A stretch of DNA of 64,000 bases, taken from contig NC_013943.1 in assembly GCF_000025725.1 (NCBI RefSeq), forward strand, positions 930,001-994,000, read 5' to 3'. The position numbers were made by a program, and so were the translations under genes. The DNA comes from Denitrovibrio acetiphilus DSM 12809. GTDB lineage: Bacteria; Chrysiogenota; Deferribacteres; Deferribacterales; Geovibrionaceae. Of the stretch, positions 45,346-63,118 are shown piece after piece (within the stretch, counting starts at the first letter, position 1; each line of letters begins with the position of its first letter). The notes beneath the pieces are model-generated. The model saw only the letters and a list, made by a program, of their open reading frames with translations, was not told where the DNA came from and ran no database searches.

Positions 45346-46869
45346 CTATAATAAACCTAGTTTTTTCATCCTGTGCCTGAGAGTGTTTGGGTGCATCTTC
45401 AACAGCGAAGCGGCTCCTTTTGTACCACTGATTCGCCATTTTGTTTGCTCAAGAATTTTCAAAATATGTTCTCGCATCATATTATCCATATCTTTATTGC
45501 AAGCGGCATTTTTGTCTGGCTGCTTATGTCGCTCGGTGGAATCGAGATCAGATATTTTAAGTTCTATTGCTTGAGCGCTGCCGAAGTTTTGAATTATTTC
45601 TCTTTCTAGAAAATTTTCCATTTCTCTGACATTCCCAGGCCAATCATACTGTATAATTTTTTCCATTTGGTCGGGACTTATAACAGGAGGTTCGGTAATT
45701 TCCAATCTTTTACATATCTTCATTATGAGGCAGGTGATAAGATCAGGGATATCCTTTTTTCGTTCCCTTATTGGTGGAATTTTCAGTGGAAAAACATTTA
45801 TTCTCCAGTATAAATCCTCTCTAAAGTCACCGTCTTCTATCATTTGGATGAGGTCTTTATTTGTTGCAGCGATAATCCTTACATTCACTTTTATTGTTTT
45901 GGTTCCTCCAAGTCTCTCAAATTCACCAAACTGTACTACTCTTAATAATTTTGCCTGACAGTTCAGCGGCAGCTCTGCCAGCTCGTCAAGGAATAGAGTG
46001 CCCTTATCTGCCAGTTCAAAGCGTCCTTTTTGTGTCGAGTCAGCACCAGTAAAAGCCCCTTTTTCGTGCCCGAAGAGTTCATTGTCTATTAAATTTTCAG
46101 GGATTGTTCCGCAATTAACTTTTATGAAAGGTTCATTATTACGTGTGGAGTTTCTATGGATGTAGTTTGCAAAGACTTCTTTTCCAACGCCGGTTTCACC
46201 TGTAATTAGAACTGAGGTTGAAAATTTCGCCACATTCTTAGCTGATTCGAATAAATTATGCAGGCACCCTTCATTGATGGTGTTTTCATCATTTTTACTT
46301 TCTGGGAAAGTGTATCTTTTGTCCCTGATGGCCATATCTTTTAAAGTTTTGGCAGTGATAGTAGTAGAGTTATAGCTGTATATATTTTTGTTTATGACCT
46401 CACTGCATAAAACTTTAGTGAATGGTGAGATAAGAACTCTTACGAGCTCTTTATGTTTTTCTGTATATATGTTCTCTCCTTTGACCCCGAGAGATACGAA
46501 TCCAAGGCTTTGGTCTGCATATGTGCACTGCAGAACAAGAAAAGAATAACCATGTACAGGCAGAGAAGTAAAAAGATCATTTCCACATAAGTTCTGCGCG
46601 TCAATGTCTGTGAAAACATTATCATATGGATACTTGTCTTTAGCGACTTTAGGAAGCTGTAATGCAGTGTCCTTTTTGAAAAGTGTTTTACCTACTGAAC
46701 ATAAGTTGAAAAGCGAATGGGATTCTTTGAAATAGCACTTCATGCTTATGAAATCGACAGGAATCTGTTTCTTCATTTCCGACAAAGTGTTATCTAAGAG
46801 TGTTTCTGTATTGTCGAAAATAAAAGCTCGTGAAATGATGTCACTGATAAATATGTTTTGATTCAGCAT
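45346..46869 (-). CDS. Sigma-54-dependent activator with N-terminal GAF-like domain
   Basis: A 507-residue regulator of the FhlA/NorR type. An N-terminal sensory domain (about residues 15-165, GAF-like, no receiver Asp) carries cysteines at CYFKES, NLCSVG, NLCGND and QCTYAD. The AAA+ domain follows with GETGVGKEVFANYIH, GAFTGA and GTLFLDELAELP. The C-terminal Fis HTH is GTKGAASLLKMHPNTLRHRMKKL. It is divergent from the flavoprotein operon, whose sigma-54 promoter at 47077-47092 is its likely target. Activation by a small ligand or redox signal at the GAF domain is inferred. Confidence 0.92.
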   Translation of the reverse strand: MLNQNIFISDIISRAFIFDNTETLLDNTLSEMKKQIPVDFISMKCYFKESHSLFNLCSVGKTLFKKDTALQLPKVAKDKYPYDNVFTDIDAQNLCGNDLFTSLPVHGYSFLVLQCTYADQSLGFVSLGVKGENIYTEKHKELVRVLISPFTKVLCSEVINKNIYSYNSTTITAKTLKDMAIRDKRYTFPESKNDENTINEGCLHNLFESAKNVAKFSTSVLITGETGVGKEVFANYIHRNSTRNNEPFIKVNCGTIPENLIDNELFGHEKGAFTGADSTQKGRFELADKGTLFLDELAELPLNCQAKLLRVVQFGEFERLGGTKTIKVNVRIIAATNKDLIQMIEDGDFREDLYWRINVFPLKIPPIRERKKDIPDLITCLIMKICKRLEITEPPVISPDQMEKIIQYDWPGNVREMENFLEREIIQNFGSAQAIELKISDLDSTERHKQPDKNAACNKDMDNMMREHILKILEQTKWRISGTKGAASLLKMHPNTLRHRMKKLGLL

Positions 46870-47607: not shown

Positions 47608-49482
47608 ATGGGCAACAAAGATAATAAATTTGAAAAAGGCGGCATCACCCGCCGGAGCTTTTTAAAGTACGGAGGGATCGCTGCTGCAAGCCTCGCTGTT
47701 GCATGCGGTGGAAGCGGTGGTTCCAGTGGAAGCTCAGATTCATCTGGTTCTGATAATGGAATTTCTTATAAAGTCTTTTCAACTGATTTGCTTTTCATAG
47801 GTGGTGGATTTGGTGCGATGTCTGCTGGTTACGAAGCAGTTAAAAATAACAAAAATATCACTATACTTGACAAAGGTCCCTTCAGAGCCAGCGGAGGAGC
47901 CGGTATGAACTGGGATGTCCAGTATGTCTGGTATCCCACTACAGACGATAATAATGGTATAAACATTGCTGGATATAAAGCGGACTCAGGATTGAAATTT
48001 GTCACAAACAAAAAGGCAATCCAGAATGCCGACCTTACGGATCCTAACAGGTCTGCACTGGAGTTTTTTGGTAACAGAGGCGAACTTTTTCCATACCGAG
48101 AGGAAGATGGCTCTCTTGAATATGATCTAAATTATCCTACTATTGCTATGGTTCCCGGTGGCTATCCACGTCATATACAAGATGAGCTTATTAAATCAAC
48201 GTTAGTTAATGTAAGCGATAGAACAATGGTCACAAGCCTTCTTATGGAAGACGGAGTGTGCGTAGGAGCTGTTGCTGTCCACCTGCCAACCGGTGAGTAT
48301 CGTATTTATAAAGCTGATGCAGTAATACTCGCAGCAGGTGCGAACTGTTGGCTCAATGGCTGGAATACAGTTGCAGCTAACAGTATGAACTCTCCCGACA
48401 ATACATCTGATGTAGAAATGGCTGCATATCGTCTTGGTGCCAGAGTCGGTGAGTCTGAATTTGGATCTTACGACCTGATATCCATTTATCCTTCAGGCAT
48501 TGCGTATTCGTTTAATGCAGGTCTCGGAGCAGATGCAAACGAGAACCAGTATATTCTCGATGCTGATCATGTAGCATTTCTTCAAGATGCAAAATATGAT
48601 CAGACCCGTTTTCTGACTGACCGCCCGTATTTCAACCAATGCGTTGGTGAGTACATGACTGACGAGAGTAAACTGACTCCGAACGGAGGACTTTACCTTG
48701 ACCTGTCAGATCCTGCTACTCTTGAGGAGATACGTCCTTGTTACTCAAGAAGTGCACAGCTCTGGAAGGATAATTTTGACATAGACGTTACGAATGGTGC
48801 CTATGTGGAAATTGGTTTTGAAATGTATGAACATGGCGGCGCGCCTGTTATTGATGAAAAAATGATGACAGATATTCCCGGACTTTTCTGTACCCGTGGT
48901 GCAGGCATAAACGGTGAAAGAGGGGGAACCGCAGAATATATGAATATAAGAATGGGATCCTACACTCTGCGCTCCGCACTTGAATATATTGATGGTTATT
49001 CGAACAATACATCTGATTATTCCTCAGCGATAGAGGAGTTTGAAAGATTGGAAGAGATAAGAAAGAGGTCAGCAAAAAGTGGTCTCCGCCCTCACGTAGT
49101 ACGTCAGAATATTCAGAAGGCTGTAGGACCTGCATTCAGTGTTGTTCGTACTACTGAAAAACTTGAAGCTGCAAGTGCTGAACTTGCCAGGATTAGAGCG
49201 GAAGATTTGCCAAATCAGATTTGTGCTGATAATTCAAAAACTTATAATACCGAGTGGAGAATGGCTATCGAAAACTACAATATGATTGAGATTGCAGAGA
49301 TGGCAATTAATGCAACTCTCATGCGTGAAGAATCCCGTGGTTATTACCGTCCAGAGTATCCCGATAAGGATGATGAGAACTGGGGATGTATGCTCGCTGC
49401 CAAGCTTGTTGACGGCGAAATGGAATTCGAAAAAGTCTTTTTTGATGACATCTCTTGGGACAACGTTACCTGGGAATCTTAA
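47608..49482 (+). CDS. Tat-exported FAD-dependent oxidoreductase lipoprotein (fumarate reductase flavoprotein-like)
   Basis: A 624-residue flavoprotein. The twin-arginine signal is RRSFLK (R15-R16) and a lipobox LAVAC puts the lipid-modified Cys at 33. A Gly/Ser-rich linker follows to about residue 50. The FAD-binding fold starts TDLLFIGGGFGAMSAGYEA with ASGGAGMNWD downstream. The second FAD segment is TDIPGLFCTRGAGINGERGG. It belongs to the FrdA/SdhA/AprA superfamily, but the fumarate-reductase active-site pattern is not obvious to me and length is near AprA. The partner genes suggest a membrane-anchored periplasmic reductase for an unknown acceptor. AAGGAG stands upstream of the ATG. Confidence 0.8.
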   Translation: MGNKDNKFEKGGITRRSFLKYGGIAAASLAVACGGSGGSSGSSDSSGSDNGISYKVFSTDLLFIGGGFGAMSAGYEAVKNNKNITILDKGPFRASGGAGMNWDVQYVWYPTTDDNNGINIAGYKADSGLKFVTNKKAIQNADLTDPNRSALEFFGNRGELFPYREEDGSLEYDLNYPTIAMVPGGYPRHIQDELIKSTLVNVSDRTMVTSLLMEDGVCVGAVAVHLPTGEYRIYKADAVILAAGANCWLNGWNTVAANSMNSPDNTSDVEMAAYRLGARVGESEFGSYDLISIYPSGIAYSFNAGLGADANENQYILDADHVAFLQDAKYDQTRFLTDRPYFNQCVGEYMTDESKLTPNGGLYLDLSDPATLEEIRPCYSRSAQLWKDNFDIDVTNGAYVEIGFEMYEHGGAPVIDEKMMTDIPGLFCTRGAGINGERGGTAEYMNIRMGSYTLRSALEYIDGYSNNTSDYSSAIEEFERLEEIRKRSAKSGLRPHVVRQNIQKAVGPAFSVVRTTEKLEAASAELARIRAEDLPNQICADNSKTYNTEWRMAIENYNMIEIAEMAINATLMREESRGYYRPEYPDKDDENWGCMLAAKLVDGEMEFEKVFFDDISWDNVTWES

Positions 49483-49506
49483 TTATAAGTTTGAAAGGAG
49501 ATATAA

Positions 49507-50202
49507 ATGAAACTGGAAATATACAAATATAATCCTGATGTTGATAATTCAGCTTCGTATGTTTACGTAAATATTGACTATAAAGATAAAATGACCGTTC
49601 TTGAAGCGATTCAGTTTGCACATGAGAAAACACCTATCCATTTTGATTACAGCTGCCACGGGCGTGCCTGCGGAAGATGCTCTGTTGTGTATGACGGCAC
49701 ACCTGTTCTTGCCTGTATAACACCAATAACAGATGGGGATCATACTATTGAGCCGATGAAAGGACACACTGTCCTGCGTGACCTTATTATTGATAAAAGC
49801 GAGGCTCATGCAGACCTTAGCCAGCGTTACAGAAGAACCAGAGCGGTTAACTTGACTGAAGAGCAGATAGAAACAATCTATGATACAAGTGTGGCGGAGC
49901 AGATTAGCGCTATTGAGTGGTGCACAAGATGTATGATGTGTACTGCCATGTGCCCTGCTTATAAAGCCAACCCTTCAACGTATGTAGGTCCTGCTGCAAT
50001 GCTTGCAACAGCGTATCGTTATTATGACCCTTATGATGAAGGAAGCAGAGTGAATGAGGCCGTTCAATCAGGTCTCTGGAACTGTATAATGTGTGGACAG
50101 TGTGACTATGTCTGTCCTCAAAAAGAGATAGAGAGAGTCTCACAAATATGGAAGGACCTCCGTGAAGCCGCGACAGATGCGGGGCTTGGAAACGAATCTT
50201 AA
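49507..50202 (+). CDS. FrdB-like iron-sulfur protein
   Basis: A 231-residue protein with an N-terminal [2Fe-2S] domain (C50, C55, C58, C70 in DYSCHGRACGRC and VLAC). The C-terminal domain has two full CxxCxxCxxxCP groups (C139-C149 CTRCMMCTAMCP; C193-C203 CIMCGQCDYVCP). In classical FrdB the second group lacks one Cys and binds [3Fe-4S]; here both look able to bind [4Fe-4S]. There is no signal peptide, so export would need co-transport with the Tat flavoprotein, or the protein stays in the cytoplasm. The ribosome site is AAAGGAG. It is 24 nt after the flavoprotein gene. Confidence 0.87.
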   Translation: MKLEIYKYNPDVDNSASYVYVNIDYKDKMTVLEAIQFAHEKTPIHFDYSCHGRACGRCSVVYDGTPVLACITPITDGDHTIEPMKGHTVLRDLIIDKSEAHADLSQRYRRTRAVNLTEEQIETIYDTSVAEQISAIEWCTRCMMCTAMCPAYKANPSTYVGPAAMLATAYRYYDPYDEGSRVNEAVQSGLWNCIMCGQCDYVCPQKEIERVSQIWKDLREAATDAGLGNES

Positions 50203-50304
50203 TAGACAATATTAAGCTTTCTAACGTGTAAGCCGGTGCAGCTACTTAGTAAATATACATAATTAGTTGCCCGGTTGTTTACCAAAAATAGTGAGGAGGT
50301 TCAC

Positions 50305-51615
50305 TTGAGACACTTGACCACATTTAAAAAACTCTGTGGTGTTGCTAATAAAGGTCTGCTAAAAGGTGCTTTTGTTATTTGTGCAATAGCGATACTCATT
50401 CTTCCGGATTTCTCCTTTGCCGTGGACTTGCAAGCTGATTCGAAGCTTATGCTTCGTGCCAGACAAACCGCAGATGAAAAAGACTTATTACCTGTTTATG
50501 ACTATATGAGCTTGGCAGCAACAAATATTCTTGATCCAAGATTATCTTTTTATGCCGGCGCATGGCTGAGATTGGATTTACATGATAAAAGCTCTGATGA
50601 TTCAACTGAAGGAGAGCTTCAGTATGCTTATCTTAACTTTCACTCTGACAATAATAACCTTGTTGCTAATCTTGGTCGTCAGTTTGTTACAGAGGGTGGA
50701 ATCTCAGAGAGGATTGACGGAGCTTATGTAAGCTCAGATCTTCCTGCCGGATTTGGTGTTGCTGCATTCGGAGGAGCACCTGTCACCACAGATACTGATG
50801 AAGATGGCGGAGACATCATTTATGGAGGCAGGTTATCACACTCTGATTCCCGATGGTATACATTAGGTGTGAGCTACTTGTATGTTGGTGAGGATGGTGA
50901 CGATTTCCGTGAAGAAGAAGCTATCGATTCATGGATTCATCCTATCTCTCAGGTGGATATCACAGGACTGTCATCTTACAACTCAATCACAGACGGATGG
51001 ATGGAACATGACTATCTCGTGTCCGTTACGCCTCTGGACGAGATCAGCATCGATGTTAATTATACCAGGATAAACTACGCTGATTACTTTTACAATATGA
51101 CATCCAATGTATTTAGCCTGATCACGCTGTCTAATCCTACAGGAACAATGGATTCCAGAGAAGAGATGCGCAATATCGGTGGTTCAGTGACATATTCACC
51201 AACGGAACTGGTTTCTCTGACTGCTGAATATAAGAACTACGACTACGAAATCGCTGGAAGTGCTGATCTCTATGGGGGAAAGATCCTGCTTAGTTTCAGT
51301 TCTATTAATTTATCCTCCGGTGCTTCTGTCCACAGGATGGAAGGTGACACAGATGAAACCTGTTACTGGGCATACAGACTTTTTACTTCTTATAAGGCTG
51401 ATAAACTCATCACAACATTAGATTTTCTGAATATGGTGTTTGATGAGAGTATTAGCGGAGTCGATAACTCTTTTGTAGCTGTTGCTTCAGCTTCTTACAA
51501 TGTTAATTCCAGTCTGAAAGCCGGATGCAGCGCAGAATATTCTGAAAGCCCTGAATTCGATGACGAAGTCAGAGGTATGCTGTATTTATCTTATCTGTTC
51601 GGGAGGGCTGAATAA
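50305..51615 (+). CDS. Outer-membrane beta-barrel protein of the flavoprotein operon
   Basis: A 436-residue protein with a long signal segment (hydrophobic about 20-42, ending FSFA). Many amphipathic beta strands with alternating aromatic residues follow, such as SFYAGAWLRLDLHD and NNNLVANLGRQFV, ending in MLYLSYLFGRAE. It resembles porins found beside multihaem cytochromes, but I see no haem motif in it. TTG 50305 is the start since GGAGG stands 5 nt upstream. The haem lipoprotein gene follows after 2 nt. It could form the outer-membrane passage or conduit for the system; this is inference. Confidence 0.75.
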   Translation: MRHLTTFKKLCGVANKGLLKGAFVICAIAILILPDFSFAVDLQADSKLMLRARQTADEKDLLPVYDYMSLAATNILDPRLSFYAGAWLRLDLHDKSSDDSTEGELQYAYLNFHSDNNNLVANLGRQFVTEGGISERIDGAYVSSDLPAGFGVAAFGGAPVTTDTDEDGGDIIYGGRLSHSDSRWYTLGVSYLYVGEDGDDFREEEAIDSWIHPISQVDITGLSSYNSITDGWMEHDYLVSVTPLDEISIDVNYTRINYADYFYNMTSNVFSLITLSNPTGTMDSREEMRNIGGSVTYSPTELVSLTAEYKNYDYEIAGSADLYGGKILLSFSSINLSSGASVHRMEGDTDETCYWAYRLFTSYKADKLITTLDFLNMVFDESISGVDNSFVAVASASYNVNSSLKAGCSAEYSESPEFDDEVRGMLYLSYLFGRAE

Positions 51616-51617
51616 AA

Positions 51618-52043
51618 ATGAAAAATATTATTATATTATTGATGTTTACGTTATTGATCGTGGCTTGTGCCCACACAGTTAGCATTCCGCGGGAGCACCC
51701 TGAGAAGCTTGATGCTATGCCTAATTGTGCAGACTGTCATGACAATGAACTGCAGGCTTTCAGCCATACTAAGCCTGCATTTTTCAAAAAACACGGTGCA
51801 TATGCAAAGCAGGAGAGACTTGTCTGTAATTCTTGCCATACTGAATCATACTGCTCTGACTGTCATACAAACAATGACGAGCTTAAGCCGAGTGAGAAAT
51901 TTCCAGACGCTCCTTTGAGAAACAGCCCACACCGAGGAGACTATCTTACTCTTCACAGGATAGATGGAAAAATTAATGCGGCACCTTGTGCCAAATGTCA
52001 CGGCAGACAAAACAATGAAAGGTGTGCAACATGTCATCAATGA
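51618..52043 (+). CDS. Pentahaem c-type cytochrome lipoprotein
   Basis: A 141-residue protein with a lipoprotein signal (LLIVAC, Cys17). Five CXXCH motifs occur: CADCH, CNSCH, CSDCH, CAKCH and CATCH. Additional histidines (FSHTKPAFFKKHGAY, NSPHRGDYLTLHR) can give second axial ligands. It should be anchored to a membrane from the periplasmic side and pass electrons to or from the flavoprotein. Its stop overlaps the next ATG by the ATGA arrangement. Confidence 0.9.
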   Translation: MKNIIILLMFTLLIVACAHTVSIPREHPEKLDAMPNCADCHDNELQAFSHTKPAFFKKHGAYAKQERLVCNSCHTESYCSDCHTNNDELKPSEKFPDAPLRNSPHRGDYLTLHRIDGKINAAPCAKCHGRQNNERCATCHQ

Positions 52044-52657
52044 AAAAAGCAATAATCTACATATGCATGACTGCGGCAATGGCTTTTATAATCGCAGGCT
52101 GTGGTGCGTCCAACGATGATAATGTTTTTTCGTCCACCAGTGATGAAGCACACTATCAGGATAACTGGCTTGAAACTAAACACTCTGAAGCGGCAGTAAA
52201 AGACCTCGAAGGTTGTATGGATTGTCACGGTGATGACTTTGAAGGCGGTATATCCAATACAGCATGTACTACATGTCACCTGGGTGATGCAATTAACATG
52301 CACCCGGTTGACTGGGGAGATAAAGCATACGCAAAGCATTACGAATATATTAAAAATACAGGATATATCGAGGCACTGCTGAGCTGTAATGATTCATATT
52401 GTCACGGCGAAGATTGGCTGGGTGGCGACACAGGTCCTTCATGCAGAACATGTCATATGGGGGGAGTCGGACTCATTCACCCTATATCTGATGTCGTTGT
52501 TTGGGCGAAAGGAACAGAAGATGATGAGTCCCACGCAACATATGTTAAGAGCAACGGAATATCATCTTGTGCTCTCGCGTCATGTCACGGGGTAAACCTT
52601 GAAGGCGTCGCAGAAACCGGTATGAGCTGTATCTCATGTCATCAACAGAATTGGTAG
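52040..52657 (+). CDS. Multihaem cytochrome lipoprotein with CXXCH and CX4CH motifs
   Basis: A 205-residue lipoprotein (signal AMAFIIAGC). Four CXXCH motifs occur (CMDCH, CTTCH, CRTCH, CISCH). Two CX4CH motifs (CNDSYCH, CALASCH) alternate with them, so up to six haems. The alternation of CX4CH and CXXCH resembles the Geobacter-type CxxxxCH/CXXCH repeat domain (TIGR01904). ATG 52040 is the first codon of the signal peptide and overlaps the preceding stop. It likely works in the same electron chain as the pentahaem protein. Confidence 0.85.
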   Translation: MKKAIIYICMTAAMAFIIAGCGASNDDNVFSSTSDEAHYQDNWLETKHSEAAVKDLEGCMDCHGDDFEGGISNTACTTCHLGDAINMHPVDWGDKAYAKHYEYIKNTGYIEALLSCNDSYCHGEDWLGGDTGPSCRTCHMGGVGLIHPISDVVVWAKGTEDDESHATYVKSNGISSCALASCHGVNLEGVAETGMSCISCHQQNW

Positions 52658-53445: not shown

Positions 53446-53596
53446 GTTGTGAATTAATAATTTATACTTGTGTTAGTGCAAAAGATATTAAATATGAATC
53501 AAAGGCTTTTACCCTGCCGCCTGAAGACTTAGAAAAGTTTTAAAAACAATATTCATTATTATTTTCAATTCGTATAAGCTGTAGTTTAATGTATAG

Positions 53597-53929
53597 TATA
53601 ATTTTTATTCAGGTGAGAACCTGTAGATGAAAGTGAGCTTGACACCCATTTAAGCTATAAGAACATATGCCGCCGCACCATATGGCATGCAGAGAAACGA
53701 CAGTCGCAAGATCAAGCATAAAGGAGAAAGCATAAGGAGGAGTCTGTCGGAAACAGCCTGGCTTTTAACTGACTTATACTTAAAAAAGAAAGATTCTCTA
53801 TGCGGTGAAAGTGTACGCATAAAAACGCTACACTGTTTGAAAGCTTCCAATCCTAATGTCCGAATTAAGCGATACAAGTACTTATTACAATATAAAGAGC
53901 CCTTGCCTTTTCAGTGGGGGTTCTTTTTT
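53597..53929 (+). ncRNA. Candidate transcribed non-coding element
   Basis: A perfect TATAAT (53597-53602) is followed by a CAGGT-GAGA-ACCTG hairpin (53610-53623). About 270 nt of sequence without a convincing gene come next. An intrinsic terminator closes it: AAAGAGCCC pairs with GGGTTCTTT, then TTTTTT (53894-53929). No -35 hexamer is clear. A 94-codon open frame at 53687 has no family features. Region 53446-53596 shows nothing recognisable. The call rests only on the promoter-terminator pair. Confidence 0.3.
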
Positions 53930-53976: not shown

Positions 53977-54711
53977 TTAAAATTCTCTCCAAATCCAGAC
54001 TACACGCCCAATAATAGGGTTGGAGGCGTTTTCTTCGGATAAATTTACTACTATTGCATCATGTGTTCTATTTTCAGGGATCAGAGTTAAAAATTGTTCC
54101 TTTATCACTTTTGCTTTTTTGAAAGTGTAGCCAGTACCGTAGTTGTCATCAAGCTGACAAAAATAAATAAATTCAGAATTTAAAGAGTTCAGGTCAGGTA
54201 CTGCTTTGTATATGCAGACCCCTGCTATGTCGCCCTTACATAAGTGCGGCTCCATAGAGTCGTCCCTTATGTGAAATGCTTTTAATTCACAGAATTTATT
54301 TGATGCGCTGTTTGGTACGCATACCCACCTGAGAGTTTTGTTATTTGTTATTCTCATTACAGATGAGCCAGCTAATGATTCAGTTTCACGCACTGGGATA
54401 AACTCAAAAGCATTTTTATTAATAACATCCGGCGGAATATTGCCGTAATAAACCTGAACATCTGAGGAGACAAGAGGTGACGAGTATCGGTTTTTTGCCA
54501 GGCTAGCAGGTGTTTCCAGGTCAAAGATAGTGTTGTAGTCAACCCCCAATGCATTAGCTATCTTGATAATTTTGTGTGAATCGAAATTTCCTGTTTTTTC
54601 ATGATGTTGATAGGTTTGATAAGTGATACTGAGAATATCTGCAATTTTGACTTGCGTATAATTCTTAATTCTTCGTAAATCTTTTATTTTTTCACCAATA
54701 TGTTTGTACAT
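53977..54711 (-). CDS. CI/LexA-like repressor with XRE HTH and S24 peptidase domain
   Basis: A 244-residue regulator. The N-terminal HTH is GEKIKDLRRIKNYTQVKIADILSITYQTYQHHEKTG (about residues 6-42). The C-terminal S24-type domain has the serine motif IRDDSMEPHLCKGDIAGV and a later Lys-rich strand region (YTFKKAKVIKEQFLTLIPEN). Proteins of this form are phage repressors or stress regulators that may self-cleave. No phage genes are present. It is divergent from the nos cluster, with three matching operators between. A role in repressing the nos operon is inferred. Confidence 0.88.
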   Translation of the reverse strand: MYKHIGEKIKDLRRIKNYTQVKIADILSITYQTYQHHEKTGNFDSHKIIKIANALGVDYNTIFDLETPASLAKNRYSSPLVSSDVQVYYGNIPPDVINKNAFEFIPVRETESLAGSSVMRITNNKTLRWVCVPNSASNKFCELKAFHIRDDSMEPHLCKGDIAGVCIYKAVPDLNSLNSEFIYFCQLDDNYGTGYTFKKAKVIKEQFLTLIPENRTHDAIVVNLSEENASNPIIGRVVWIWREF

Positions 54712-54727
54712 TTTAGTATTTTATCAT

Positions 54728-54742
54728 GCAGATTAAACCTGT
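54728..54742. promoter_or_regulatory. Operator copy 1 (GCAG-N7-CTGT)
   Basis: GCAGATTAAACCTGT, 17 bp from the repressor start, has the same spacing as the two perfect sites but one mismatch in the right half. Confidence 0.55.
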
Positions 54743-54746
54743 ATAA

Positions 54747-54761
54747 GCAGAAAATACCTGC
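54747..54761. promoter_or_regulatory. Operator copy 2 (GCAG-N7-CTGC)
   Basis: GCAGAAAATACCTGC has perfect dyad half-sites with 7-bp spacing. Its centre is 19 bp from copy 1 and 42 bp (about four helical turns) from copy 3. Confidence 0.65.
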
Positions 54762-54770
54762 TATTTTTAG

Positions 54771-54799
54771 TTGACTATTAATTAATATGCAGATATATT
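54771..54799 (+). promoter_or_regulatory. Promoter of the nos cluster
   Basis: TTGACT (54771-54776) and TATATT (54794-54799) are spaced by exactly 17 bp; each has five of six consensus bases. It reads toward the cytochrome and nosZ. The -10 box is inside operator copy 3. The leader to the first gene is about 155 nt and includes a 13-bp palindrome TGCTGTAACAGCA (54874-54886). Confidence 0.72.
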
Positions 54800-54803
54800 C
54801 TGC
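54789..54803. promoter_or_regulatory. Operator copy 3 (GCAG-N7-CTGC) on the -10 box
   Basis: GCAGATATATTCTGC carries perfect half-sites, extended by flanking ATTAA and TTAAT. It is centred on the TATATT -10 element, so a bound repressor would block polymerase. Confidence 0.68.
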
Positions 54804-54961
54804 ATTAATAAGCATATGTTTGTAAGTTTGGGCATGGGTTCATATTCATAAGAGAATAAATGAAATAAGTGTTTGCTGTAACAGCATAAAATATCAGCCT
54901 TGATAGAACATAAAATAAGTTGGTTACAATAAACTCATGAAAAATACTACAGGAGATTCTT

Positions 54962-55276
54962 ATGAAAAAAGTTTTGATACTAACTTTTATGGTTCCTTTT
55001 ATAGCGGTTGCGTCTATCGGACCGTCAGAAATAAATCTCAGGGAGACATGGGGTGTCCAGGGAACCAGAGGAGATGTCATTTTTAAACACGAGTTCCATC
55101 AGGATAATAATTCATGTACTGACTGTCACAAAACCGATGAAGGCGGGAAGTTTAAACCTGAGGGTGAAATCAAAGGTATGACCAATAAAAATGCTGCACA
55201 TAAATTTTGCTGGACATGCCACCAGTCGAAACATCTCCCCGCTGTAAAAAGATGTGACAAATGCCATACGAAATAG
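54962..55276 (+). CDS. Small trihaem c-type cytochrome (c7-like)
   Basis: A 104-residue periplasmic cytochrome with a signal peptide (about 1-18). Three CXXCH motifs occur (CTDCH, CWTCH, CDKCH), with histidines spaced as in cytochrome c7/c3 (KHEFHQDNN, AAHKFCW). GGAG lies upstream of the ATG. It precedes nosZ by 26 nt and may deliver electrons to the reductase. Confidence 0.87.
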   Translation: MKKVLILTFMVPFIAVASIGPSEINLRETWGVQGTRGDVIFKHEFHQDNNSCTDCHKTDEGGKFKPEGEIKGMTNKNAAHKFCWTCHQSKHLPAVKRCDKCHTK

Positions 55277-55302: not shown

Positions 55303-57882
55303 ATGTCGAAAGTTAGGAATGTATTTTTGCTGTTTTCTCTTTTTGTCTTTGTGACAGGTGCTTCAGCCAGCACATTGCAGGATATTATGAAACAGCGCAA
55401 CCTGTCAGAAAAGGATATTCTGGCAGCAGCAAAAACTTATCAACCTTCTGGTAGAAAAGACGAATTTATTACCTTTTCTTCCGGTGGTCAATCAGGTCAG
55501 GTTATAGTTTATGGTGTTCCCTCTATGAGGATTTACAAGTACATAGGAGTATTTACACCTGAACCGTGGCAGGGTTACGGCTATGATAATGAATCCAAAA
55601 AAGTTTTAGAAGGTGGCAATTTCAGAGGGAAGAAAATTACATGGGGAGATTCGCATCACCCTGCTTTGACTGAAAAAAATGGTGAATACGTTGGTGATTA
55701 CCTTTTCATTAATGATAAAGCCAACCCCAGAATTGCTGTTATTGATCTGAAAGATTTTGAAACAGTTCAGATTGTAACAAACCCAATAATGAAAAGTGAA
55801 CACGGAGGTGCCTTTGTCACCCCTAACAGTGAATACATTATTGAGGCAACACAATATGCAGCACCTCTTGATGACCAATGGCATCCTATAGAGGACTACG
55901 AAAATTCGTTTCGTGGTGCTCTGACTATGTGGAAGTTTGATTATGACAAGGGCAGAATTAATACTGATAAATCTTTTTCACTGGAACTTCCTCCTTACAT
56001 GCAGGATCTTTCAGATGCAGGTAAGGGCGTTTCCAACGGATGGGGTTTTATAAACTCTTTTAACTCAGAAATGTATACTGGCGGGATTGAAAAAGGTCTT
56101 CCTCCTTTTGAAGCAGGTATGAGCCGTAATGACAATGACTACCTTCATATTTTCAATTGGAAAATCCTTGAAAAACTTGCCGAGGACGAGAAAAACTATA
56201 AGATCTACAACGGTCATAGAGTTATTTCTATGGAGGCTGCTATCAAAGCAGGCGCTCTTTTCCTTATCCCGGAACCGAAGTCTCCTCATGGTGTAGACGT
56301 CTCTCCTGACGGAAGATTTCTGATTGTATGCGGCAAGCTTGATACTCATGCTTCTGTTTATGATTTCAATAAAATCAAAGGTTTGATTGATAAAAAAGAA
56401 TTTATTGGTAAAGACCCTTACGGTATACCTATTCTGGACATGAAGAAAACACTTCATGGTCAGGTTGAGCTTGGGCTCGGGCCTTTGCATAGTTCTTTTG
56501 TGCCTGAGGAAGGTGTTCTTTATACCTCTCTTTACGTTGATTCTCAGATTGTCAAATGGGATTATAAGAATCTTAAAGTTCTCGACAGAATCAATGTTCA
56601 CTACAACATAGGTCACGTTGATGCTATGGAAGGTAAATCAGCTAAACCTGCTGGTAAATATGTGATTGCACTTAATAAGCTATCCATCGACAGGTTTAAT
56701 CCCGTGGGACCCCTTCACCCTCAGAACCATCAGCTTATTGATATAACAGGTCCGAAAATGGAACTGCTATACGATATGCCTATTCCTCTTGGTGAACCCC
56801 ATGATGTTGTGACTATAGCCGCATCAAAACTTAAGCCTAAAAAAACATATGATATGGGTAGCGACTCGCGTACTGGTAAACCGCACCCTGACGCAACTCT
56901 TGCCGGCAGCGAACGGATTGAGAGAAACGGTAAAAATGTAAAAGTTTATGCGACCATGGTTCGTTCACACATAAACCCTGAGCATATTACTGTCAACAAA
57001 GGTGATGTTGTTACAATCGTTGTGACAAACCTTGAGAGAGCACAGGACGAAACACACGGTTTCGGTGTTGACGGTATGAACGTTCACGCTTCAGTTGAGC
57101 CGGGCAAAACGGCAAGTGTAACTTTTGTGGCAGATCAGGAAGGTGTATTCCCATATTACTGTACAGAGTTCTGCTCTGCTCTACACCTTGAGATGATGGG
57201 ATATCTTTTCGTCAAAGATCCTGACAAAAAGTACGAAGATATCAAAAAAACTCAGCTTAAAAAGATGAGCCAGGAAGAGCTCATGGCTGAATATAAAAAG
57301 ATAATAGCCACAAATAAAGCGACTGATGATGTCATCCAGTCTGTAGTTAAGTATCTGAAAGATAATAACTATCAGAAATATTCCAGCATTGAAAGGCTTG
57401 TAGTTGACGCCCTTGATCAATACGGCAAGATTCCTGAGGTAAAAGCGAAAGCAGATGATGCCTATAATAAAGGCAATCTGGATGAAGCTATCCTGTGGGA
57501 AAACCAGGTATGGCAGTACATGGTTAAAACCGCCGATGTCGGACTGCGCGCCAAAAATAACCTTGCGAGAACGATTGCCACTCCGATGAGTGATGCAGCA
57601 GCAAGAGGCGAGCTTGCATATCTTGAAGGCGGGTGTAACGGCTGTCATGTTATCGGTCAGGTCAGCTCCGGTCCCGACCTCACAGGTTCAATCTGGCGTA
57701 CGAACGAAAAATGGGTTTGGGAATTCATCAAAGATCCGGCACCGAAATATAACGAACCTTACGTTAAGGAATACATCGATTACTTCAATCTCAGAATGCC
57801 GAACCAGAATATGTCCGACAAAGAGGTGGATGATATAGTGGAGTATATGAAGTGGATTGATGAAAACGCCGATTTGTTCTAA
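55303..57882 (+). CDS. nosZ: Clade II nitrous oxide reductase with fused cytochrome c domain
   Basis: An 859-residue periplasmic enzyme that reduces N2O to N2. It has a Sec-type signal peptide (FVFVTGASA), not Tat, as in clade II. CuZ histidine motifs are GDSHHPAL (H118-H119), SEHGGAFV, SPHGVDVSPDG, GLGPLHSSF, IGHVDAMEG and GEPHDVV. The CuA site is C620, C624, H628, M631 (CTEFCSALHLEMM). The C-terminal domain carries haem motif C778-N-G-C-H. The same fused arrangement is known from Wolinella. AAGGAGG stands upstream of the ATG. Confidence 0.97.
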   Translation: MSKVRNVFLLFSLFVFVTGASASTLQDIMKQRNLSEKDILAAAKTYQPSGRKDEFITFSSGGQSGQVIVYGVPSMRIYKYIGVFTPEPWQGYGYDNESKKVLEGGNFRGKKITWGDSHHPALTEKNGEYVGDYLFINDKANPRIAVIDLKDFETVQIVTNPIMKSEHGGAFVTPNSEYIIEATQYAAPLDDQWHPIEDYENSFRGALTMWKFDYDKGRINTDKSFSLELPPYMQDLSDAGKGVSNGWGFINSFNSEMYTGGIEKGLPPFEAGMSRNDNDYLHIFNWKILEKLAEDEKNYKIYNGHRVISMEAAIKAGALFLIPEPKSPHGVDVSPDGRFLIVCGKLDTHASVYDFNKIKGLIDKKEFIGKDPYGIPILDMKKTLHGQVELGLGPLHSSFVPEEGVLYTSLYVDSQIVKWDYKNLKVLDRINVHYNIGHVDAMEGKSAKPAGKYVIALNKLSIDRFNPVGPLHPQNHQLIDITGPKMELLYDMPIPLGEPHDVVTIAASKLKPKKTYDMGSDSRTGKPHPDATLAGSERIERNGKNVKVYATMVRSHINPEHITVNKGDVVTIVVTNLERAQDETHGFGVDGMNVHASVEPGKTASVTFVADQEGVFPYYCTEFCSALHLEMMGYLFVKDPDKKYEDIKKTQLKKMSQEELMAEYKKIIATNKATDDVIQSVVKYLKDNNYQKYSSIERLVVDALDQYGKIPEVKAKADDAYNKGNLDEAILWENQVWQYMVKTADVGLRAKNNLARTIATPMSDAAARGELAYLEGGCNGCHVIGQVSSGPDLTGSIWRTNEKWVWEFIKDPAPKYNEPYVKEYIDYFNLRMPNQNMSDKEVDDIVEYMKWIDENADLF

Positions 57883-57975: not shown

Positions 57976-58740
57976 ATGAAAAGGTTCAGAAAATCAAATA
58001 TCTATGCAGGGATCGCTCTTTGCATACTGATTATTGCATTTGTATTCCCTGTGATGGTTTATCATAAAGTCCCTGAAAAGATCGCTTCAGGAAATATAGA
58101 GAGTATACCGTCCTATATTGCCCCTGTGTGGGATCTTTACCAGACCGGTCGTTATGTCAGTCCGTATACTCCCCAGGGAGCTGAAAAGGATTTTAAAGAG
58201 CTTGTCAAGCGCAGGGCTGAAATAGGAGTTCCTTCTGTTCCGGTGTGGTTTGTCTCTCTTGAAGCACCGAACTATCCCAAAGAAGCTTTTCCAAACGGGA
58301 TCCCGGTTTATTTCCATATGGACGGATATTCCGGGGATGTTCATGAAATGAACACAATCAACCACTTCATCGGTATGTACCCAATGGAAAGAGGGGGCAG
58401 GGTCGAACGTATTTTTTTGCCATATCTGCTGCTTTTTGAAGTTTTTCTTTTCCTGCTTTTTATGACCATGAAGCATCGTGTAGTTACGGTAGGAATGCTT
58501 TTGCCTGTTCTGTTTCCTGCTGGGTTTCTCGCTTTCTATTCAGGATGGCTTTATTGGTACGGGCATAATCTGCAGGAATGGGGCATGTTTAAAGTTAAGC
58601 CTTTTATGCCAACTGTCTTCGGAGACGGGAAAGTTGCACAGTTTACAACGCACTCATACCCATCGTTGGGATTTTATCTGCTGCTTGTAATATCTGCTCT
58701 TTCGATCCTTGCCATACTGTCACGCAGAAATGAATCTTAA
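57976..58740 (+). CDS. nosB: NosB-type membrane protein
   Basis: A 254-residue inner-membrane protein with an N-terminal helix and a ~120-residue periplasmic segment. At least three C-terminal helices follow (around 155-175, 178-198 and 230-250). The position directly after nosZ and before nosD is that of NosB in clade II clusters. NosB is needed for N2O respiration in Wolinella, but its mechanism is not known. The gap of 93 bp after nosZ contains no clear terminator. Confidence 0.82.
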   Translation: MKRFRKSNIYAGIALCILIIAFVFPVMVYHKVPEKIASGNIESIPSYIAPVWDLYQTGRYVSPYTPQGAEKDFKELVKRRAEIGVPSVPVWFVSLEAPNYPKEAFPNGIPVYFHMDGYSGDVHEMNTINHFIGMYPMERGGRVERIFLPYLLLFEVFLFLLFMTMKHRVVTVGMLLPVLFPAGFLAFYSGWLYWYGHNLQEWGMFKVKPFMPTVFGDGKVAQFTTHSYPSLGFYLLLVISALSILAILSRRNES

Positions 58741-58751
58741 AGGTCGAAACA

Positions 58752-59975
58752 ATGGCTATACGTTTACTTTTCGCTGTATTGCTGACAATCACGCAAGCTG
58801 CTTATGCAGGTGTACTTCAGGAAGCTATAGATAATGCTCCGGAAGGCTCCACTCTTGTTCTGGGGAAAGGCACATACAGGGGAAACATAGTAATAAACAA
58901 ACAAATTAATATTGACGGCATTGATGGCGGTGCAGTGATTGTTGGCGATGGAACGGGAACTGTTATAACAGTGAACTCCAGCTACGTTACGCTTCAAAAC
59001 CTTTCAGTGCGTGGAAGCGGTGATAATCATGATTTTATAGATTCATGCATCGCCGTGAAAAATGCTGATGTAGTAAAAATACATGACAACAAAATATCAG
59101 ACTGCCTGTTTGGTGTAAATCTTGAACAGGTCAACAGGTCTGTTGTTGAAAATAACAGGATCGAGTCAAAGCCGTTCAGTCTCGGACTGCGTGGGGACGG
59201 AATAAGGCTCTGGTACAGTCACTTAAACGTAATACGTTCTAACATATCAAATAATGTCCGTGATACTGTCTTCTGGTATTCCAGCGGAAACCAGATCGAA
59301 AGCAACACTGTTACAAACAGCAGGTACTCACTACATTTCATGTATGCAGACAGAAACGTAGTATACAACAACACTTTTAATGGAAATTCTGTCGGAGCCT
59401 TCTTTATGTTCAGCCATTCGTCAAGGGTTCAGAAAAACAAAATGCTCAGGGGAGTGGGAGCCTTCGGCATAGGGATAGGCATGAAGGAGTGCTCAGATTT
59501 CTTAATTACTGATAACACCGTTTTGTATAACGCCAGAGGCATGTATGTTGACCAGTCTCCCCATCAGCCGGGTATGACCAATATCTATAATAACAATCAG
59601 GTAATGTACAATTCCGTTGGGATACAGTTTCACGGAACAACAATCGAAAGCAGTTTCGAAGGAAATACTTTTAAAGGCAACATAACAGATCTCTCAAACA
59701 ACTCGCTAGAGTCAAAGCTTGAGCTCAACAAATGGCTCATGAACGACTGGGACGCATACGAGGGGTTTGACTTTGATGGTGACGGTTTCGGCGACACCCC
59801 TATGGTCGTAATGTCTTACGCTGATTCAATATGGCAGTACAGACCGTCAGCAAAGTTTTTCTATGGAACGCCGGCACTCAGTCTGCTTGATTTTCTGGCT
59901 CGGTTATTACCCTTTTCTGAGCCTCAGATTTTAGGTGTTGATGAAAAACCGGTCATGGAGAGAACTTATGAGTGA
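58752..59975 (+). CDS. nosD: NosD, periplasmic copper-site maturation protein
   Basis: A 407-residue protein with a signal peptide (about 1-19, ending AAYA). A right-handed beta-helix is built of repeating turns with Asn and Asp, for example SNISNNVRDTVFWYSSGNQI and NVVYNNTFNGNSVGAFFMF. A C-terminal hydrophobic stretch is followed by a short charged end. With NosF and NosY it supports assembly of the CuZ centre. It overlaps nosG by 8 nt. Confidence 0.94.
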   Translation: MAIRLLFAVLLTITQAAYAGVLQEAIDNAPEGSTLVLGKGTYRGNIVINKQINIDGIDGGAVIVGDGTGTVITVNSSYVTLQNLSVRGSGDNHDFIDSCIAVKNADVVKIHDNKISDCLFGVNLEQVNRSVVENNRIESKPFSLGLRGDGIRLWYSHLNVIRSNISNNVRDTVFWYSSGNQIESNTVTNSRYSLHFMYADRNVVYNNTFNGNSVGAFFMFSHSSRVQKNKMLRGVGAFGIGIGMKECSDFLITDNTVLYNARGMYVDQSPHQPGMTNIYNNNQVMYNSVGIQFHGTTIESSFEGNTFKGNITDLSNNSLESKLELNKWLMNDWDAYEGFDFDGDGFGDTPMVVMSYADSIWQYRPSAKFFYGTPALSLLDFLARLLPFSEPQILGVDEKPVMERTYE

Positions 59976-60651
59976 GCTAAGCAGAAGAAGATTTATATGG
60001 TATGCAATTGCAGTTGCTGCGGGGGGCGGTGGATTTTTGCTCCCGTCTGTTTCACATAGTTTTTATGGTCTGAGACCTCCTGCGGCTCTTAAAGAGAGCA
60101 CCTTTCTGGCTACCTGCATCAAATGCGGGCAATGTGTTCAGGTCTGTCCTTATCACAGTGTCACTTTGCTTGACATGAACTACGGAGTGGCGGCGGGAAC
60201 ACCTGTAATAAAGCCGGATGAGCGTGGATGTTATCTTTGTGATTTATTGCCATGCGTGCTTGCCTGTCCTTCAAGTGCACTTGACCACAGCGTGGATGAT
60301 GCTTTCGGTGTCTCTATGGGCAAGGCTTATATAGATAATATAAAGGACTGTTTGTCATATAAAGAAAGTCGGCTGACAGATGAAAATATTGCAAGTCTCA
60401 CTGATGGCAAGCCGGAGAAAACAGATGTTGAGAGAAAACTTAATCAAACGCTGAAATCCCGTGTCTCGACAGACTGCGACCTTTGTGAAAGGTATTGTCC
60501 ATTTCCTGAGAAAGAGAATGCGATAGGGTTTGTTAGCGAGAACGGTAAAAGAATACCGGAAATAAGAGAAAAATGTGTGGGGTGCGGTGTCTGTGTGGAG
60601 CTTTGCCCTGTAAACATTATTAAAATAATACCCGTGGACAGGAGGGTTTAA
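59968..60651 (+). CDS. nosG: NosG, NapG-like Fe-S protein
   Basis: A 227-residue Tat-type protein (SRRRFIWY at residues 5-12). It has four cysteine groups: CIKCGQCVQVCP, CYLCDLLPCVLACP, CDLCERYCPFP and CVGCGVCVELCP. With NosH it should form a membrane quinol dehydrogenase that passes electrons to the c-type cytochromes. ATG 59968 has GGAGAG 5 nt upstream; an upstream ATG at 59935 lies in nosD. It overlaps the next ATG by one base. Confidence 0.9.
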   Translation: MSELSRRRFIWYAIAVAAGGGGFLLPSVSHSFYGLRPPAALKESTFLATCIKCGQCVQVCPYHSVTLLDMNYGVAAGTPVIKPDERGCYLCDLLPCVLACPSSALDHSVDDAFGVSMGKAYIDNIKDCLSYKESRLTDENIASLTDGKPEKTDVERKLNQTLKSRVSTDCDLCERYCPFPEKENAIGFVSENGKRIPEIREKCVGCGVCVELCPVNIIKIIPVDRRV

Positions 60652-61178
60652 TGAAGCATTTAGTTTTTGTTTTTTCTTTTTTGCTTCTTATAGGCTGTAC
60701 AGAGGAAAAGCAGAATCTCACTCCAGATGAACCGGGGGAAGTACAGGTGATAACCGGTGATATCACAGATATGTCGAAAGACATCTTCTACGGCTATAGC
60801 TCAAAAGGCGAGCATATCGTTAAATATGCCCCTGACGGTGAAGAGAATGCAACCACAAGAGCAGTGGGCGCTGTTGTTACAGCAAAAAGTACGCCTTATG
60901 GAAGTATAGGTCTTAATATGATCGAAAAAAAGCTGGGTAAAAGTTACGTGGTGAAATGTGCTCCATGTCACGACGACTATGCTAACGGGGTTATAGGTCC
61001 GTCTCTGCTGGATAAAGACGACAAGCAGATTTATCAAATGATAACTAAATACCGGAAAAACGAAGAGAAAAATACATTGATGCAGAGGTTTGTCAATAAA
61101 ATGACAGATGAAGAGATACGTGAAATAGCAGTCCGTATCAAAGAATTTAACGATGAAGTCAAACGGAGCGGATTATGA
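60651..61178 (+). CDS. nosC1: NosC1, monohaem c-type cytochrome lipoprotein
   Basis: A 175-residue protein with lipoprotein signal (LLLIGC, Cys16). One haem motif CAPCH is in the C-terminal half, with a likely Met ligand in the later MQRFVNKMTDEEI segment. It is placed as NosC1 of clade II clusters, to carry electrons from NosGH to NosZ. GGAGG stands 5 nt before the ATG. Confidence 0.87.
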   Translation: MKHLVFVFSFLLLIGCTEEKQNLTPDEPGEVQVITGDITDMSKDIFYGYSSKGEHIVKYAPDGEENATTRAVGAVVTAKSTPYGSIGLNMIEKKLGKSYVVKCAPCHDDYANGVIGPSLLDKDDKQIYQMITKYRKNEEKNTLMQRFVNKMTDEEIREIAVRIKEFNDEVKRSGL

Positions 61179-61606
61179 ATAAAACTATGATAATAATAGG
61201 TGTTTTGCTAATACTTGCTTTTGGTTTCTTACTTGTTCAGGAGTTTTCCTCTGTTGAAAGTGAAACGGTGGTTTCCCAGCCTGAAGCGCAGGAGGTGGGG
61301 CAGAGCTCAGAGCAGCCTTCGGTCACCGAGGAAAGCCTGAAAAAACAAGTTGTAAGTGAGCTCAGTAATGAGCCAGGCAGAGCCGAGCGCAGTAAAAATT
61401 ATCTCGTTAAGTGTGCTCCCTGCCACAGTCGCGACGGTTCAGGACCAGTGGGGGCAGCTATCAAGGGTATGAAGAAGGATATTTTACTGAAAAAACTCAA
61501 TGACTATAAACACGGCAGAGTTGAAAACTCCATGATGAGCGGACTTATGAGGAATATGACGGATGAAGAGATAAACGAATTGGCTGAGGAGATATCAGGG
61601 TTTTAG
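61175..61606 (+). CDS. nosC2: NosC2, monohaem c-type cytochrome
   Basis: A 143-residue protein with an N-terminal membrane anchor (about 4-22), a Glu/Gln/Ser-rich linker and one haem motif CAPCHSRDGSGP. The C-terminal part (LMRNMTDEEINELAEEI) is similar to that of NosC1, so the two arose by duplication. It overlaps nosC1 by 4 nt. Confidence 0.87.
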   Translation: MNKTMIIIGVLLILAFGFLLVQEFSSVESETVVSQPEAQEVGQSSEQPSVTEESLKKQVVSELSNEPGRAERSKNYLVKCAPCHSRDGSGPVGAAIKGMKKDILLKKLNDYKHGRVENSMMSGLMRNMTDEEINELAEEISGF

Positions 61607-61608
61607 AT

Positions 61609-62478
61609 ATGGATAAATACAAAAAAAAGGTAACATTGAACAATACTGGTCTGGTGGACAGTCTTTTCATAAGACATAACGCAAAGACAAAACTTTCTTT
61701 ACGTGCTTTCCGCTGGCTGTCAGTTTTTCTGATTACTATGCTTTTTGTGCTGTCATACCACGCTGATATTCAGATGCTTGAGGGGACATTGGTTGGGTCG
61801 CGGTTTATCGGATTTCACCTGATAGATCCTACTGTTTTTTTGCAGTATATGTTTGCCTCTCATATGTTTCCTGTAAATCTTGTCATAGGAACGTTTACTA
61901 TTGTTTTCTTTTATCTGATCTTTGGCAGAGCGTTTTGTTCGTGGGTTTGCCCTTACGGATTGATCAGCGAGCTTGGAGAAAAACTTAACAATATACTCGT
62001 TACTAAAAAAATAGTTAAACCGCATACTCCTCCGAAATATATGAACGCCGTATTTTTTGCGCTATTCATGTTGCTGAGTTTTGCGACAGGATATTTGATT
62101 TTTGAAACAATCAACCCGGTGGGGATAATAAGCCGGGTTATTTTGTACGGCACATGGGGCTCAATAGTGATTCTGGTACTGATATTTATGCTGGAAATAT
62201 TGGTCGGTAGACGCATTTGGTGCAGAGCTGTTTGTCCTGTGGGTTTTGTCTATGGGCTTCTGAATATAGTCTCCGCAGTGAAAGTACATTATGGCACTGA
62301 CTGCGATAACTGCGGTTCATGCCGGTCTGTGTGCCATGTTCCGCATGTTCTTGAAAGCACAGGGAAAGGCGTGGAAAAGTATATCACCCATATCGATTGT
62401 ACCATGTGCGGCAGATGTATTGATGTATGCCACAACGATACTCTGACATATAAAAGCAGACTCAAAAAACTGGTGTAA
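61609..62478 (+). CDS. nosH: NosH, NapH-like membrane Fe-S protein
   Basis: A 289-residue protein with four membrane helices. CSWVCPYG and CRAVCPVG motifs follow helices 2 and 4. Two C-terminal cluster motifs are CDNCGSCRSVCH and CTMCGRCIDVCH, where the usual CP is CH. It is the membrane part of the proposed NosGH menaquinol dehydrogenase. It lies 2 nt from nosC2 on one side and 1 nt from nosF on the other. Confidence 0.9.
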   Translation: MDKYKKKVTLNNTGLVDSLFIRHNAKTKLSLRAFRWLSVFLITMLFVLSYHADIQMLEGTLVGSRFIGFHLIDPTVFLQYMFASHMFPVNLVIGTFTIVFFYLIFGRAFCSWVCPYGLISELGEKLNNILVTKKIVKPHTPPKYMNAVFFALFMLLSFATGYLIFETINPVGIISRVILYGTWGSIVILVLIFMLEILVGRRIWCRAVCPVGFVYGLLNIVSAVKVHYGTDCDNCGSCRSVCHVPHVLESTGKGVEKYITHIDCTMCGRCIDVCHNDTLTYKSRLKKLV

Positions 62479-62479
62479 C

Positions 62480-63118
62480 ATGATAGAGATAAAAGAACTT
62501 GTAAAAAAATTTGGTGATCAGACGGTACTGAATAGTATAAATCTGACTGTTTCCGATAAAGAAAAACTGATGATCCTCGGACAAAACGGAGCAGGGAAAA
62601 CTACTCTGATGCGCTGCATTTTAGGCGAATATAAACCTGATGCCGGAAGTATTGTAATTAACGGCTATCAGACAATTGAGGAAAGAGTGAAGTCTCTTGA
62701 AAAAATATCTTTTGTCCCTCAGCTCCCACCTCCTCTGAGGCAGACTGTGAGAGAGCTTATTAACTATTCTTCAAGTCTGACAGGTTTTGACAAAGGGAGC
62801 ATTGCTAATTTTTGTCAAAAAATGGATCTGGATATTGAGCCTCATTACAAAAAACCATTCTTTAAACTCTCTGGAGGGATGAAACAGAAAGTTCTTATAA
62901 GCATAGCGCTTGCCAGAGATTCAAATGTACTGATATTTGATGAACCCACAGCGAATCTCGACCTGAAAGGTAGAGAACGGTTCTATGATCTGATAAATGA
63001 ATACTGCATGGATAAGATACTTATGTTTATAAGTCACAGGGTTGAGGATCTTGCCGGGCTTGCCAACAGAAAGATTGAGCTTGATATAGGAAAGATTGTC
63101 AGTGATGAGAAAATTTAA
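62480..63118 (+). CDS. nosF: NosF, ABC-type ATPase for NosZ maturation
   Basis: A 212-residue ATPase. Walker A is GQNGAGKTTLMR, the signature is LSGGMKQKVLI, and Walker B is VLIFDEPTANLD, followed by SHRVED. It is shorter than NosF of proteobacteria (about 300 residues), lacking the C-terminal extension. NosY should follow, but is not in the window. Confidence 0.9.
   Translation: MIEIKELVKKFGDQTVLNSINLTVSDKEKLMILGQNGAGKTTLMRCILGEYKPDAGSIVINGYQTIEERVKSLEKISFVPQLPPPLRQTVRELINYSSSLTGFDKGSIANFCQKMDLDIEPHYKKPFFKLSGGMKQKVLISIALARDSNVLIFDEPTANLDLKGRERFYDLINEYCMDKILMFISHRVEDLAGLANRKIELDIGKIVSDEKI

Follow-up and report, generated by a model that had tools for sequence, protein, structure and literature searches.

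The nos locus and its flanking genes

Denitrovibrio acetiphilus N2460T is a nitrate ammonifier with a genome of 3,222,077 bp and 42.5% G+C (PMC3035293). The window analysed here is a 64-kb stretch of this genome (64,000 nt; contig NC_013943.1, positions 930,001 to 994,000). It carries a clade II nos operon and, divergent from it, the gene of a phage-type repressor, with the following features:

53701 to 53889, plus strand: degenerate IS21-family end, comprising the istB 3' end and sequence beyond it, immediately behind the repressor gene
53977 to 54711, minus strand: XRE-S24 (CI-type) repressor gene, 244 aa, Pfam HTH_19 and Peptidase_S24
54718 to 54745, minus strand: putative repressor promoter, TATACA-16-TAAAAT, 9 of 12 matches in a consensus scan, TG before the -10 box
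54728 to 54742, no strand: operator-like site 1, GCAGATTAAACCTGT, centre 54735, one mismatch, by pattern search
54747 to 54761, no strand: operator-like site 2, GCAGAAAATACCTGC, centre 54754, perfect, by pattern search
54771 to 54799, plus strand: putative nos operon promoter, TTGACT-17-TATATT, 10 of 12 matches in a consensus scan
54789 to 54803, no strand: operator-like site 3, GCAGATATATTCTGC, centre 54796, perfect, by pattern search
54962 to 55276, plus strand: c7/c3-type multihaem cytochrome heading the putative operon, Pfam Cytochrome_C7 (2.1e-7)
55303 to 57882, plus strand: nosZ, Sec-dependent (clade II) N2O reductase with a C-terminal cytochrome c domain, TIGR04246 (860 bits, over the cut-off)
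57976 to 63118, plus strand: nosB, nosD, nosG, nosC1, nosC2, nosH and nosF, in the order typical of clade II, named by synteny and similarity

The combination of a Sec-type NosZ with nosBDGC1C2HF is that of a clade II nos operon. NosD is named by Pfam, nosG and nosH fall in NapG/NapH-type families, and the gene order is as in related clusters. The nearest NosZ relatives, at 76–81% identity, are those of Mucispirillum-type Deferribacterota and Campylobacter. Full nosZ is absent from the same-genus and same-family species of the 60-genome set, and thus the nos cluster has probably been acquired or differentially lost. Further upstream in the window, 45346–46869 encodes a sigma-54-dependent activator, NorR/NifA-like by NCBIfam below the cut-offs, and 47608–52657 holds the divergent flavocytochrome/multihaem cytochrome cluster. 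A 211-aa cytochrome of that cluster has no match in the 12 relatives searched.

The repressor protein

An earlier note on this DNA had described the divergent gene as an XRE-S24 protein of the phage-repressor type, and the domain searches agree. Both Pfam matches are over the Pfam cut-offs, with HTH_19 (1.1e-7) at residues 6–66 and Peptidase_S24 (9.4e-8) at residues 143–238. The protein also matches phrog_4, "transcriptional repressor", over practically its full length (residues 3–243, 2.7e-23). It thus has the one-chain layout of CI-type phage repressors, with an N-terminal HTH and a C-terminal S24 domain. A putative catalytic dyad is present as Ser152 (in SMEP) and Lys198, the latter being invariant in the homologue alignment. 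A possible cleavage bond, Ala114-Gly115, is found 37 residues ahead of Ser152, in a stretch that the Pfam match does not cover and where the homologues have no Ala-Gly; self-cleavage at this putative site may occur. The structure predicted from the single sequence has a pLDDT of 34.6, too low to be of use. The open reading frame is intact, and this repressor and LexA are the two S24 proteins of the genome.

The nearest relatives of the repressor among the 60 related genomes reach only about 30% identity. With the single sequence as query, no close relative was found in genome contigs, phages, plasmids, or viral contigs. An alignment query against viral contigs found five weak relatives, two of which retain GRVxWxWR as a C-terminal signature and are encoded opposite small divergent HTH genes.

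Three operator-like palindromes

The earlier note had reported three sites in the intergenic DNA, starting at 54728, 54747 and 54789 with centres 19 and 42 bp apart, and a pattern search finds them just so. All three are 15-bp palindromes of the form GCAG-N7-CTGC/T, and complementarity extends to the bases that flank the arms (T..A, A..T, and T..A in sites 1, 2 and 3, respectively). They were evaluated by a motif-agnostic palindrome test, in which any 4-bp arm with a spacer of 3–12 was scored against base composition and compared with dinucleotide shuffles. For the 250-bp intergenic DNA, none of 20,000 dinucleotide shuffles was as extreme, and this DNA ranks first among the 250-bp stretches of the window, with a margin of over three orders of magnitude. 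A cruder palindrome count that ignores composition found similar families in 8.9% of shuffles and was not significant, which is the one point for chance palindromes. However, set against the composition-aware result and the lack of any comparable stretch in the 64 kb, chance is scarcely credible as an explanation, and the three palindromes are far beyond chance. A degenerate 23-nt copy (78%) of the junction between sites 1 and 2 (54739–54761) is found at 54876–54898, beside a perfect 13-bp palindrome, TGCTGTAACAGCA, at 54874–54886. The copy is possibly a fourth weak site or a chance resemblance.

Across the 3.2-Mb genome, GCAGAWWWWNYCTGY, the consensus of the sites, has 10 matches, including the three at this locus, a count that is descriptive because the consensus was derived from these same sites. 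Six of the other seven matches fall within open reading frames and the seventh in a small intergenic gap at 862583; no second cluster is present elsewhere in the genome. A genome-wide regulon was therefore rejected, and the sites appear to serve the nos locus. LexA was likewise rejected as their binder, the separate lexA gene of the genome having a Bacillus-type box, CGAACACATGTTTG, upstream.

These counts also bear on whether a different host regulator binds the palindromes, the XRE-S24 gene being merely another of its targets. Sites on both promoter-like sequences are what a global regulator might show. In contrast, the missing second cluster and the near absence of intergenic copies fit a dedicated local regulator, and the sites are neither LexA boxes nor FNR boxes. 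A different host regulator is hence considered distinctly improbable.

Promoter-like sequences and the placing of the sites

The boxes of the putative nos promoter are TTGACT at 54771–54776 and TATATT at 54794–54799, separated by a 17-nt spacer, although promoter-like matches in such a consensus scan are generally as frequent in shuffled sequences and a match alone is no proof of function. The predicted start is at about 54806, with a leader of 156 nt; the actual start may be nearer the cytochrome gene. Site 3 lies over the -10 box with its centre at -10 of the predicted start, and so the overlap with a 17-bp-spaced promoter-like sequence reading into cytochrome-nosZ, which had been claimed before, is present as written. 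No terminator-like site was found between this promoter and the cytochrome gene, and read-through into the nos genes is therefore expected if the promoter works. A structured leader or riboswitch was considered for the 156 nt and rejected, as the fold z-score is -0.16 and the sole Rfam match, a 28-bit hit to mir-367, is a chance one. Copying of the cytochrome promoter from the paralogue at G000:C1:1869478 was also rejected, since there is no upstream similarity.

On the other side, the predicted transcript of the repressor gene starts at or near the ATG at 54711 and would be leaderless. Site 1 is inside the spacer and the -35 box of the putative repressor promoter, at -24 of this predicted start, and site 2 is at -43. 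Relative to the predicted nos start, the same two sites are at -71 and -52.

With sites 1 and 2 on the upstream side, the S24 protein might act chiefly as an activator of nos, in the manner of lambda CI at PRM, and not as its repressor. CI-type activators use the -42 position, and neither -71 nor -52 corresponds to it. Moreover, site 3 over the -10 box is in a blocking position. Activation as the main role is very improbable on this geometry.

Comparison with relatives

The pairing of the repressor gene with nos genes was found in none of the 60 related genomes and is known from one genome only. Neither the translations of the 3.5 kb upstream of other nos clusters nor blastp revealed an XRE-S24 gene ahead of them. 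The nos clusters of genomes G016, G040 and G042, whose NosZ is 79–81% identical, have neither a relative of the repressor nor a site cluster. In the first of these, the DNA preceding nosZ encodes a ParA-like protein and a small XRE protein of 79 aa (L053:13390-15192); by blastp the latter is unrelated to the D. acetiphilus repressor.

All three of these clusters have a 9/10 FNR box, TTGATATATGTCAA or TTGATTTAAGTCAA, within 130 bp of nosZ, each reached by a fraction of 0.02–0.05 of shuffles, with G040 and G042 not independent of each other. Ahead of the D. acetiphilus nos genes, the best box of the TTGAT-N4-ATCAA type scores 8/10 and is reached by 39% of shuffles (0.39), and the looser Nss-type TTGA-N6-TCAA is at chance level (0.69); two degenerate matches of these types are at 54900 and 54920. 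In contrast, perfect FNR boxes are present in D. acetiphilus ahead of hcp and a narK-type transporter, both named from translations (L106:1501-1514 and L109:1501-1514). Because the relatives have near-perfect boxes, those at nos here are at chance level and the host boxes at hcp and narK are perfect, the comparison suggests that FNR-type control has been lost or weakened at this nos cluster, with the operator set replacing it.

Homologues of the repressor at about 30% identity within the same order provide a second comparison. In G018, G024 and G013 (L056:8008-8754, L057:8438-9163 and L058:7906-8646), a shared palindrome near TAACCGATTGGTTA lies within about 25 bp upstream of the start codons of these XRE-S24 genes; the corresponding position in D. 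acetiphilus holds another sequence. The palindromes look like those of autoregulators in their placing, and cognate operators close to the gene thus look like a habit of the family.

Mobile-element traces

The earlier note had stated that no phage genes surround the repressor. This holds for the flanking open reading frames, as no cro-like or phage gene was recognised in the ORF lists, part of which was scanned against PHROGs; the statement did miss the IS21 remnant at 53701–53889. Over 190 bp, the remnant shares 70% identity with the terminus of an istA-istB element located at G000:C1:296247, the family name being taken from the translated istA and istB. Nearby, an 82-bp intergenic stretch at 53535–53616 is 71% identical to one at G000:C1:2712149. 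The gene opposite the repressor encodes a cytochrome and not Cro; with no phage genes seen, the repressor is thus family-like as a protein, but the locus is not a phage immunity region now. At 36.6% G+C, the repressor gene is below the 42.5% of the genome (PMC3035293); the intergenic DNA is also AT-rich. The base composition, the IS21 remnant and the phage-type family together favour capture from a mobile element.

The same observations feed the chief rival to a co-opted nos repressor. An AT-rich repressor gene beside an insertion sequence remnant could be recent debris, namely the leftover immunity region of a decayed phage or integrative element next to an acquired nos cluster. Its repressor would still autoregulate, the juxtaposition would not be physiologically important, and nos would be expressed mainly from a promoter nearer the cytochrome gene under FNR-type or other control. 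The phage-type relatives of the repressor and the absence of such a neighbour of nos genes in any relative fit this account as well. However, the open reading frame is intact, all three sites are well preserved, and no other element gene was recognised. The open path from the site-3 promoter into the cytochrome gene, with the read-through expected if that promoter works, also speaks against mere juxtaposition. Leftover debris is therefore a serious but unlikely explanation.

A probable co-opted local repressor of nos

Operator-like sites on both divergent promoter-like sequences, a fitting repressor family, and the lack of a regulon elsewhere support a different reading, which we hold to be the probable one with some reserve: the CI-like XRE-S24 repressor would have been co-opted as a local, dedicated nos regulator that autoregulates, represses nos, and replaces or overlays FNR-type control. 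For this putative repressor, binding, repression, autoregulation, cooperativity and the signal are what we infer. Repressor dimers would occupy all three GCAG-N7-CTGC operators between the two divergent genes. By binding site 3 they would cover the -10 box and shut off the cytochrome-nosZBDG promoter, and by binding site 1 they would repress the leaderless promoter of the repressor gene itself. Site 2, at -43 of the latter promoter, has the position from which a lambda-like repressor would stimulate its own transcription or assist the filling of site 1. Derepression, via self-cleavage or some ligand or partner, would then switch N2O respiration on. Several points weigh against this reading: the occurrence of the pair in a single genome, the 156-nt leader that the nos promoter implies, the equal frequency of promoter-like matches in shuffles, the AT-rich repressor gene next to an IS21 remnant, and the two degenerate FNR/Nss-type matches at 54900 and 54920.

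A stronger version of the co-opted repressor is a true CI-like switch, in which a self-cleaving and cooperative repressor would keep nos off until nitrosative or DNA damage releases it through RecA-dependent cleavage. N2O reduction would then be part of a damage response, perhaps all-or-none. This version is judged improbable.

Comparison with known systems

In lambda OR, several short palindromic operators serve two divergent promoters, the repressor transcript is leaderless, one site is near -42, and one is over the repressor promoter. The D. acetiphilus locus resembles this and phrog_4 immunity regions in its HTH and S24 domains, in multiple palindromes on two divergent promoter-like sequences, in a predicted repressor transcript that looks leaderless, and in having one site close to -42 and another over the putative repressor promoter. 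It differs from lambdoid CI regions in that cro is missing, cytochrome-nosZ occupies the early-lytic place, and there is no prophage. The site spacing is also different, 19 and 42 bp here and about 23 in lambda.

A closer parallel is FddR of Francisella, an S24-family co-opted phage repressor outside any prophage (PMC13148647). The FddR promoter contains the palindromic operator GTG-N11-CAC, and FddR autoregulates, controls the divergent gene, and has almost no other regulon (PMC13148647). It has been tested experimentally, is conserved genus-wide, and is linked to DNA damage, with uncharacterised genes or dinB as targets (PMC13148647). The two regulators are alike in being phage-type S24 proteins without a prophage, with palindromes at their own promoter (a putative one here), a divergent gene, and hardly any sign of a regulon elsewhere. 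In contrast, the operator sequence is different, and the putative target here is a respiratory operon, known from sequence in one genome.

The control of clade II nos genes has been linked to Crp/Fnr-type proteins and TTGA-N6-TCAA-type boxes, as for NssA/B/C of Wolinella (PMC6682613) and in Nitrosophilus (PMC11539149). These organisms share the enzyme clade and a related nos gene cluster with D. acetiphilus. Such a box is found in the Deferribacterota clusters compared above, whereas the D. acetiphilus cluster has none above chance. Another S24-type regulator at an operon of redox or anaerobic metabolism is cyanobacterial LexA at the hox hydrogenase operon, where its direct role is disputed in a review (PMC4264147). 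That regulator is LexA itself, whereas the protein here is of phage type and encoded by a gene divergent from the operon.

Novelty and significance

The regulators known to control nos are of the FNR/Crp type, NosR, or responsive to NO/N2O. A full-text literature search found no paper that pairs nosZ with a CI repressor. A CI-like switch for N2O respiration had been put forward as new; the target genes indeed appear to be new, but the design is known from FddR (PMC13148647). The expression of nos decides whether a nitrate ammonifier is an N2O sink. If the proposed role is true, the captured phage repressor would illustrate how a regulator from a mobile element can rewire a horizontally moving respiratory cluster, and the inducing conditions would be predicted to differ from the ones that clade II N2O reducers are assumed to have.
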